Source: an uncultured Elusimicrobium sp. (lineage in GTDB: Bacteria; Elusimicrobiota; Elusimicrobia; Elusimicrobiales; Elusimicrobiaceae). From it: a stretch of DNA of 35,932 nucleotides. The stretch lies in contig CAMZDW010000008.1 of assembly GCA_947305555.1 (NCBI GenBank), positions 1-35,932 of the forward strand, written 5' to 3'. Positions 6,626 through 8,508 of this stretch are shown here, piece after piece. The position numbers and the translations under genes are program-made. How positions within the stretch are numbered: the stretch's first letter is position 1; each line of letters begins with the position of its first letter. The notes below the pieces were generated by a model. That model did no database searches and was not told where the DNA came from. It saw nothing but the letters and a program-made list of their open reading frames with translations.

Positions 6626-7627
6626 TCAGTCATGTGGCCTCAGTGGGACAGTACCCCCGGAGCCGTCGGGCGACGCAGATGAGTACTCTATTTCTAGCTG
6701 TGTCGGACCAATCGTTTTACATTTGTCCGAGGTTACTCTATTACATTGTAAACAGGCCCACTTATAGTATCTACATGGCTCACCAACACCGGAACCCCTT
6801 TCACAGAGCATATCATACCACAAAAATTGATCTCCCACCTTACAATTATCTTGTTTGGCTCTTATGTCAGCATTGGACCTAAGCATTTGCTTAGGGGCAT
6901 CGTAATTCTTACTGCAGTGATGTATACCATTAGCGTAATAATTAATGTGGCGCAACCCGCTAGGCGGCGGTGTAAAAGTTACATTGTTATCTGTGTATTC
7001 GTAATATACAAAGGCCGAAAGACAATTGTGATAAGTGGGTTCTTCCTCTTGTGTTGATGAAGAGGTTCCCCAGCTAGAGGTTAATAACCTTTCAGTTTTG
7101 TCATCATTTCCTAGCCAATGCAAATTTCCAGGAGCTCTTTCGTCTTCTAAACTCATTTTATTCTTGCCTTCTATTTCAAAATCACTTTCACCCTCTCCTG
7201 CAAGTCCTCCCCAAACTGCCGCTCCGGACACATTCGCCCCGTTTTCTACGTACAAAGTCTCCTTTACCTTCACATTGGAATCCGTAGCTGAATCCATGGT
7301 AACCGTGTTGGCCCACAAACCTTTCCCTGTTATATTACCCCCGGACTGAATCGTTAATGTATTCGCCGATAATTCACCCACACGTCCCGTTAATGCTGCG
7401 TTCTCTTTCAACACCACGTCTCCTAATTCCGCGTTCCCGTTTCCGCGTAATTGAATGCTTGTGTTCCCATAGATACTCGCATTCTTCGCTTTAGCCTTTG
7501 TAACGGTTTCTACCTTAGAAAAGGATCCTACCGGTGCAGACATTAATGTGACAAATTGTAATTGGTCGGCATAGACAACAGAGCACAATAAAATGCTTAA
7601 TACTGTAAAGATGCTTACTTTTTTCAT
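6626..7627 (-). CDS. secreted protein with beta-solenoid-like N-half and Cys-rich C-half, unknown
   Basis: A 333-residue exported protein with a signal peptide MKKVSIFTVLSILLCSVVYA. Residues about 45-150 show short hydrophobic/Asn/Gly-rich repeats of the type seen in right-handed beta-solenoids or adhesin stalks (NASIYGNTSIQL, ANTLTIQSGGNITG, VKVKETLYVENGANVSG). Residues about 200-333 hold eight Cys, including CLQC, with many Tyr, His and Asn, suggesting a disulfide-stabilised cap or binding domain. The start is supported by AGAGGG (about 7635-7640). No family is recognised. A surface or adhesin-like role is inference. It is a single gene with its own terminator. Confidence 0.72.
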   Translation of the reverse strand: MKKVSIFTVLSILLCSVVYADQLQFVTLMSAPVGSFSKVETVTKAKAKNASIYGNTSIQLRGNGNAELGDVVLKENAALTGRVGELSANTLTIQSGGNITGKGLWANTVTMDSATDSNVKVKETLYVENGANVSGAAVWGGLAGEGESDFEIEGKNKMSLEDERAPGNLHWLGNDDKTERLLTSSWGTSSSTQEEEPTYHNCLSAFVYYEYTDNNVTFTPPPSGLRHINYYANGIHHCSKNYDAPKQMLRSNADIRAKQDNCKVGDQFLWYDMLCERGSGVGEPCRYYKWACLQCNRVTSDKCKTIGPTQLEIEYSSASPDGSGGTVPLRPHD

Positions 7628-7760: not shown

Positions 7761-7788
7761 TTGACTTTTTTTTGTTTTCCCTTATACT
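7761..7788 (+). promoter_or_regulatory. strong sigma70 promoter of candidate ncRNA
   Basis: TTGACT (7761-7766), 16-bp T-rich spacer, TATACT (7783-7788). Each box has five of six consensus bases, one of the best promoters in the window. The start site is expected around 7794-7797. Confidence 0.8.
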
Positions 7789-8038
7789 AGAGGTACGTTC
7801 TTTTGTCTGCGGGAGTTCCAGCCGCCACGGACAGAGCGGAAGTGTGCTGGTAGGGTGCCAAGGATGGAGGAAGTTGGCCGGTGAGTTTGAGCGTGAGTAG
7901 TGCCGCGGGTAGGGCCTATCTTCGCATATGCTCCTGCGCATGACGAATCCAATCCATCGCTGAGGTACGAGCATCAAAGATGCTTAAGCGAAGTTGGTTC
8001 GGTGCCCCCGGTATGTTCCTGATAGAACGGGTGCCAGT

Positions 8039-8077
8039 GGAAGATGGTTGCTGGTATCAGCCGGAAGATGGCGCTGG
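8039..8077 (+). repeat. two-copy 24-nt-period repeat inside the candidate ncRNA
   Basis: GGAAGATGGTTGCTGG (8039-8054) and GGAAGATGGCGCTGG (8063-8077) are near-identical and start 24 nt apart. They may form similar sub-helices or a duplicated protein-binding site. Confidence 0.6.
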
Positions 8078-8178
8078 GTTGATAAAGAATGCTTCGATCC
8101 AGTAAGCACGTGGTATAGAAAAGGTTGGAAAACGACCGCTAAGTTCAAGGTAAGGAGTGAACATGGTCAGTACAAAAT

Positions 8179-8212
8179 GAACCCCTCAGTTGCGTAAACT
8201 GGGGGGTTCTTT
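8179..8212 (+). terminator. terminator of candidate ncRNA
   Basis: An uninterrupted 13-bp stem: GAACCCCTCAGTT (8179-8191) with AACTGGGGGGTTC (8197-8209), including one U-G pair, and a 5-nt loop. The tail TTTATGTTATT is only partly U-rich. Its first four bases are also used in the 5'/3' closing helix of the RNA. Confidence 0.85.
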
Positions 8213-8241
8213 ATGTTATTGCTAACAGGGGCTGAAAATTT

Positions 8242-8508
8242 CTACGGAATAGAATCCATAATTTTGCGCAGCTCTTCTTCGCTCTTATCACGCACTTCCA
8301 CGGTTTTCTCTTTCCCCTTGGCCCCTTTGACGATGATAATGCTGGGCTCTGCTACATTAAAAAAGTCGGCTAAAAAAGTTTTCATGAGCGCATTTGCTGC
8401 ATCATCATCCACCTTTTTGTTTTTAATTTTCACACGCAACACACTGCCAATACGGCTGATAACTTCGTTGCGCCCTGTGGTGGGAATTAAACGGACTTTA
8501 ATAATCAT
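8242..8508 (-). CDS. yggU: YggU / DUF167 family protein
   Basis: An 88-residue protein matching the DUF167 (UPF0235, YggU) family in length and pattern: an N-terminal VRLIPTTGRNEV strand, LRVKIKNKKVDDDAANALMKTFLADFF (the family's basic and VD..AN..L region), then IIIVKGAKGKEKTVEV. The molecular function of the family is not established. The start overlaps the yggS stop (ATGA at 8505-8508), and its Shine-Dalgarno GGAGGA lies inside the end of yggS, so translation is coupled. The yggS-yggU pairing is common in bacteria. Confidence 0.88.
   Translation of the reverse strand: MIIKVRLIPTTGRNEVISRIGSVLRVKIKNKKVDDDAANALMKTFLADFFNVAEPSIIIVKGAKGKEKTVEVRDKSEEELRKIMDSIP

Follow-up and report, generated by a model that had tools for sequence, protein, structure and literature searches.

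A structured RNA family with a putative five-codon reading frame at its terminator in one genus of gut Elusimicrobiota

Introduction

A stretch of about 400 nucleotides with a promoter, a terminator and no long reading frame raises the question of what, if anything, it encodes. Such a stretch lies on contig G000:C8 of an uncultured Elusimicrobium sp., whose 35,932 bases were analyzed at full length (the window) and whose source genome measures 1.36 Mb and is 80% complete. The initial annotation read it as a lineage-specific, abundant structured RNA or, failing that, a very diverged housekeeping RNA. The RNA, here called RNA-1, is a previously uncatalogued RNA family. Comparison of its sequences indicates that it is very probably a structured RNA transcribed on its own, from one copy per genome, in a single genus of gut Elusimicrobiota.

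Among the matches listed for noncoding RNA in Elusimicrobi*, no paper is by its title dedicated to the subject. Neither RNA-1 nor its mini-ORF and terminator architecture is described in the titles and abstract openings of the matches listed. A word search of the main text of three ncRNA surveys (PMC8040213, PMC8632094, PMC11109978) found Elusimicrob* in none of them. RNA-1 adds a large structured RNA family to the phylum Elusimicrobiota.

The RNA-1 Locus

The features of the locus are collected in Table 1. The near-consensus promoter, the 13-bp terminator and the lone position between minus-strand genes were all correctly described in the initial annotation, and since the DUF167/YggU neighbor is convergent, the window copy of RNA-1 is not its leader. 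Promoter-like sites occur around the locus at 4 per kilobase vs. 1.5 in shuffles, and terminator-like sites at 2 per kilobase vs. 1.2. At these frequencies the two signals are weak evidence alone, and conservation in relatives is what counts.

Table 1. Features at and around the RNA-1 locus, numbered from the first base of the window.
Feature	Position	Strand	Details
Upstream neighbor, 333-aa protein	6626..7627	-	No Pfam match
Promoter	7761..7788	+	-35 TTGACT, 16-nt spacer, -10 TATACT
RNA-1, predicted transcript	7795..8212	+	5' end inferred from promoter, 3' end from terminator
Core hairpin, CUGGGUUGA-loop-UCGAUCCAG	8074..8102	+	Conserved; family consensus GGUUGAU...UUCGGCC
Shine-Dalgarno motif, AAGGAG	8152..8157	+	ATG 5 nt further on
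Five-codon mini-ORF, ATG GTC AGT ACA AAA TGA (M V S T K stop)	8163..8180	+	
Intrinsic terminator	8179..8215	+	13-bp stem at 8179-8209, starting within the TGA stop; followed by T
Downstream neighbor, DUF167/YggU protein	8242..8508	-	Convergent with RNA-1

The plus strand of 7791-8214 has a fold z-score of -3.72, equaled by none of 100 shuffles, and the minus strand of the same region one of -0.87, equaled by 20 of 100. The closing helix between the 5' and 3' ends, which had been proposed from this copy, is weak in it: the minimum-energy fold has no pairing at the extreme ends, and the end pairing of the centroid fold is a 4-bp GUAC/GUAC alone. Closing helices are nevertheless predicted in its relatives.

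Distribution in the Genus

In a first DNA search of 66 genus genomes, 11 other genomes matched at the 3' end only, and the full unit at these 11 loci consists of a promoter, about 480-530 nt and a terminator. One additional match, in G002, falls in an apparent coding region. When two of those units served as queries, near-complete members numbered 13 in one search and 5 in the other, each query counted in. A covariance model (R1), trained on 28 sequences and limited to the 3' part, finds one strong copy (at least 37.5 bits) in 56 of the 66 genomes, training genomes included, and, by our own tally, in 34 of the 36 that are of high quality (completeness of 90% or more, contamination of 5% or less). 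The window copy, a member of both training sets, scores 74.9 bits with R1 and 70.6 bits with a second model, R2. Ten genomes have no R1 match (G063, G001, G087, G032, G065, G009, G082, G062, G010 and G089); G001 and G063 are the high-quality ones without an RNA-1 match, and in G062 an RNA-1-like terminator stands at a contig edge.

Outside the genus, R1 gave nothing of at least 25 bits in 24 genomes from other genera of the family, and R2, run on 149 order genomes, gave nothing above 28 bits save 42.8 bits in G091, an R2 training member from another genus. Inside the genus, R2 matches of 30-34 bits in G069, G028, G089 and G065 turned out to be RNA-3, a family described below. Weaker hits of about 28 bits or less (L154, L155, L157, L158, L160, L161 and L259-L264) contain no such RNA by eye. 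The core pattern, searched in one genome per species across 84,980 species, occurs in 24 stretches, of which 16 carry Elusimicrobi- names, seven are labeled 'uncultured bacterium' and one belongs to Solibacteraceae; the last is taken for a chance match. A virus origin of RNA-1 was also considered and rejected, the core pattern being absent from IMG/VR viral contigs.

Comparison With Known RNAs

Compared with 4227 Rfam families, the whole window had no score above a gathering cut-off, and at permissive thresholds the RNA region produced chance-level matches only, the best reaching 18 bits against a cut-off of 48 and lying on the minus strand. In 18 relatives' loci, likewise, nothing within the RNA passed the cut-off; the sole hits above it were two tRNAs next to the RNA at one of these loci. 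The RNase P RNA model (RF00010) has no match in the window, and the RNase P RNA of this genome lies at G000:C2 (205.6 bits). The tmRNA resembles RNA-1 in being structured, in its short internal reading frame and in its comparable size. It differs in that its model (RF00023) does not match the window RNA and in being a separate gene, above the cut-off in 34 of 41 genomes. In the window's own genome (80% complete) there are weak tmRNA-model hits only; an above-cut-off tmRNA is probably absent there through missing sequence.

Of the housekeeping RNAs, SRP RNA needs the closest attention. The small and large SRP RNA models (RF00169, RF01854) found nothing in 40 order genomes, compared with 11 and 6 of 14 control genomes, and such searches can miss, as Bacillus subtilis, a control, was negative with both. 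The SRP RNA of this order may therefore go unrecognized, which would leave room for RNA-1 to be that RNA in a very diverged form. However, no SRP match was obtained in the window RNA at E up to 10 or in nine relatives' RNA-1 loci at E up to 5. RNA-1 moreover varies in length from 221 to 543 nt among 56 units (that of G036 is truncated by a contig end), and outside the family neither RNA-1, by model search, nor SRP RNA, in the 15 such genomes searched for it, was found. With RNase P RNA encoded elsewhere in the genome and tmRNA a separate gene in those 34 genomes, a very diverged housekeeping RNA, SRP RNA above all, is highly improbable, and the second reading of the initial annotation is not supported.

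Genomic Context

The usual gene order is glyQ, glyS, RNA-1, a convergent small lipoprotein-like gene and a radical-SAM gene. Within two ORFs of RNA-1 at 34 loci, by our own simple ORF calling, glyS beta lies upstream in 26, the small lipoprotein-like gene downstream in 19 and the radical-SAM gene in 15; glyS, glyQ and Radical_SAM are Pfam names at one locus, and the labels 'lipoprotein' and 'lipA' in this neighborhood are our own readings. The window copy sits elsewhere, adjoining DUF167/YggU. A synteny with DUF167 was considered and rejected, since DUF167 neighbors vary by genome.

At these 34 loci, the first ORF downstream of RNA-1 has the opposite orientation in 26 cases and the same orientation in four, and is absent in four. 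With 26 of 30 such ORFs opposite, RNA-1 is thus not a leader. This bears on a cis-acting attenuator, in which a leader ORF and a terminator would control a downstream gene. Motifs that combine a uORF with a terminator have been described, e.g., the ilvB and fthC motifs (PMC11109978), and RNA-1 shares with them a Shine-Dalgarno motif, a short ORF and an intrinsic terminator, the very layout of an attenuator. Unlike them, it has no downstream gene to control, since the neighbor is convergent in those 26 loci as well as in the window, and no single amino acid appears dominant among the codons of its short ORF. An attenuator is largely refuted and most unlikely.

Structure and Covariation of RNA-1

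The spacing between -35 and -10 is 16 in all 55 units that have upstream sequence, most units having been found via a promoter pattern permitting spacers of 16-18, and the -10 is TATACT in 50 of the 55. Clade folding took in 38 of the 56 units and left out 18. The five clades (13, 5, 9, 4, and 7 sequences) have folds of 99-178 pairs with 10-34 compensatory, and the pairs broken in more than 30% of sequences number 9, 12, and 15 in clades B, C, and E.

For clade A, with its 13 sequences and 142 pairs, the controls retain the structure predicted from that same alignment, which leans in its favor. In the observed alignment 98.0% of cells are paired and 28 pairs show two-sided change with pairing kept. 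Sliding the partner leaves 37-48% of cells paired and four to nine two-sided pairs, and shuffles average 10.6 such pairs, none of 500 reaching 28. In a tree-aware null, which keeps the number of changes per column and drops them at random on the tree, there are 5.8 ± 2.1 two-sided pairs with a maximum of 13 in 300, and at most 94.7% of cells are paired.

The core hairpin GGUUGAU-loop-UUCGGCC was examined in an alignment (A4) of 55 sequences, 51 of them distinct. Its cells are paired in 88.0%, vs. 17-56% when slid, and five of nine pairs show two-sided change; the outermost two pairs fail to form in 18 and in 28 of the 51. Cores were located by a motif pattern with two mismatches permitted, so that the invariance of their sequence is partly by choice, and in G068 this pattern found no core. 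With covariation beyond phylogeny and no long ORF, RNA-1 has the properties expected of a structured RNA, as far as the predicted folds go. The initial annotation had held that covariation in relatives without an Rfam match would support a new class; conservation, compensatory changes and the lack of a match were all found, and its first reading stands as far as a lineage-specific, free-standing structured RNA goes, the abundance it supposed being left aside.

Some further features were considered. In the clade A fold the start codon pairs with the 5' end, but by eye this is absent from the other clades, and the idea was dropped. A CsrB-like sponge was rejected, GGA being only mildly enriched (563 vs. 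502 shuffled). A heptamer, AAAGCGG, shows an enrichment of about 14-fold (63 vs. 4.4 shuffled; 53 units), with up to four per RNA, and is absent from 22 of the 56 units, the window copy among them.

A Mini-ORF at the Terminator

In all 56 units the body is followed by a purine-rich, Shine-Dalgarno-like motif, an ATG 2-8 nt further on and, beside the terminator, a stop in the same frame. The mini-ORF has five codons in 54 units, four in one and eight in one, start choice having favored five-codon frames and eight frames having been assigned by hand from sequence. A scan for 2-12 codons, free of that preference, recovered the frame in 49 units and none for the other seven. Seven units start with ATGATG, so that five may be six codons (and eight may be nine in one). 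The initial annotation had seen no credible ORF and had called the RNA non-coding, which is right for long ORFs; it had passed over the five codons behind AAGGAG, and RNA-1 is probably not strictly non-coding.

The 56 units hold 38 distinct frames. As these are kin by descent and not independent, the following test yields no clean probability: hydrophobic residues make up 7.8% of those after Met, compared with 20.6% in within-frame base shuffles, of which none of 2000 was as low, and T occupies codon position 2 in 5.2%, compared with 12.6% after shuffling. Such frame-specific hydrophilicity argues for translation and is hard to explain otherwise. The stop is TGA in 43 units, TAA in seven and TAG in six. 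Since TGA often overlaps the terminator stem, its conservation could be partly structural; the 13 TAA and TAG stops seem to speak against a purely structural origin. The Shine-Dalgarno region is predicted to be accessible, with 69% of positions unpaired compared with 35% in the body. It exceeds the body in this respect in 52 of the 56 units, the AUG in 42 only. In the clade A consensus fold the motif is paired with an upstream UCCU (helix 18), so that accessibility may be conditional. By eye, neither the RNase P gene of the window's genome nor the tmRNA of an order-level relative has such a tail.

With a Shine-Dalgarno motif, a start, an in-frame stop and frame-specific selection, the mini-ORF has the sequence marks of a translated small ORF. 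Its translation is likely: ribosomes would start close to the 3' end of the RNA, synthesize a short hydrophilic peptide and terminate where the terminator hairpin has its base. A different reading is that of an ordinary trans-acting structured RNA that yields no peptide and whose Shine-Dalgarno motif and ATG would serve in ribosome docking or in structure. This reading fits the covariation of the body and the unconserved peptide sequence. It does not fit the in-frame stop in all 56 units, drawn from all three stop codons, or the frame-specific base composition, and is considered improbable.

The main rival, itself unlikely, holds that the peptide is the product, a diversifying hydrophilic formyl-pentapeptide acting as signal or effector, and that the body is an unusually long regulatory 5' UTR. 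The frame-specific hydrophilicity would suit such a product, as would a sequence that differs between clades at mostly constant length and the peptide MKEST, common to RNA-1 and the separate RNA-3 family. On the other hand, the frame is kept while the peptide varies much, a covarying body of several hundred nucleotides is excessive for five codons, and within two ORFs to either side there is no recurrent gene of transporter or receptor type, as far as the few proteins scanned there show. Translation itself seems to matter more than one particular peptide.

A Proposed Model of Ribosome Control

By comparison of its members, RNA-1 very probably consists, in order, of a promoter, a variable multi-helix body, a Shine-Dalgarno motif, a mini-ORF of five codons as a rule, and a stop touching or overlapping the terminator stem; the body is closed by long-range helices and contains the conserved core hairpin. 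In the model that we favor, a ribosome terminating at that stop would lie over the 5' arm of the hairpin and thereby leave the 3' end open, by which the stability or folding of RNA-1 would be coupled to initiation capacity. The act of translation would be what matters, the exact peptide being free within the hydrophilic demand. The body itself would work in trans, probably as an RNP, while the passage of ribosomes over the final 30 nt would control the RNA. This mechanism as a whole is tentative and rather doubtful. As the best overall explanation of RNA-1, the combination of family, translated tail and ribosome control is nonetheless held to be reasonably likely. If the tail is translated, it would tie the lifetime of a regulatory RNA to the supply of ribosomes in a simple and testable way.

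Among known systems, dual-function sRNAs such as SgrS/SgrT and RNAIII are like RNA-1 in joining a regulatory RNA to a small ORF. These sRNAs encode tens of residues of conserved sequence, whereas the ORF of RNA-1 has about five codons of free sequence and a stop at the terminator. OLE, ROOL and GOLLD are likewise large, ornate structured RNAs of restricted lineages; RNA-1 is unlike them in lacking an Rfam match, in its fast-evolving body and in the 3' mini-ORF of every unit. The case also carries a warning for annotation, as an RNA that is 'non-coding' by all usual length cut-offs appears to be selected as a reading frame.

The Same Tail on Other RNAs

The specificity of the tail module, defined as a Shine-Dalgarno motif, 3-8 codons and a stop against a terminator, was checked by a scan of 1.48 Mb with both strands counted (0.74 Mb of DNA). 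It covered the window and the collected loci, overlaps included. As the loci were selected because many contain these RNAs, the outcome speaks to specificity and gives no rate for whole genomes. The scan returned 117 sites, of which a motif rule assigns 102 (57 RNA-1, 35 RNA-2 and 10 RNA-3). By our own reading, the 15 sites left unassigned comprise four RNA-3, three RNA-1, five RNA-2 (or a relative from another genus) and three that look unrelated.

RNA-3 comprises 12 units of 393-433 nt (L025, L026, L028, L034, L151-L153, L159 and L255-L258), with a body that looks unrelated to that of RNA-1. Its fold has 91 pairs, 50 compensatory compared with 20-33 when slid, a weaker contrast. Its tails consist of a Shine-Dalgarno motif, a 5-6-codon ORF and a terminator and would encode MNECT, MKECT, MKEST, MEQSTN, MEESTN, MAETK and MNQTK.

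RNA-2 is a conserved, structured RNA of about 170 nt. In the loci examined it was parsed for 43 of the 66 genus genomes, among which are the ten that lack an RNA-1 match, and also for G091; the window genome's own copy is L196 (G000:C3:39800-41600). Among loci L186-L246, 45 were parsed and 43 have an in-frame ATG, and in nine further loci the RNA-2 region had nothing above the Rfam cut-off. The fold of 38 distinct sequences has 52 pairs, 22 of them compensatory, in a structure predicted from the same alignment. Translation of RNA-2 is less clear, owing to the apparent hairpin potential of the tail region and its several in-frame ATGs. A similar GGUUG hairpin and a UAAGACCCGG-like motif suggest that RNA-1 and RNA-2 may be paralogues.

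RNA-3 has the same 3' arrangement as RNA-1, and RNA-2 has it less clearly, so that a repeated design of mini-ORF and terminator is exposed on dissimilar-looking bodies. It is quite possible, if somewhat short of probable, that in Elusimicrobiaceae at least two different bodies of free-standing structured RNAs (those of RNA-1 and RNA-3, and by trend that of RNA-2) bear a terminator-fused frame of about five codons whose translation, rather than a conserved peptide, is the working part, the RNAs being ribosome-gated.

Two minor observations concern these relatives. L198 (G086:C5) and L199 (G005:C25) have near-identical RNA-2 regions, and the RNA-1 copies of the two genomes fall into separate clades. 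A further RNA-2 of G005 lies at L206, and binning contamination or transfer is a possible source of the similarity. RNA-3 stands directly behind a gene whose C-terminus looks LexA/S24-like by our own reading, two scanned fragments having no Pfam match.
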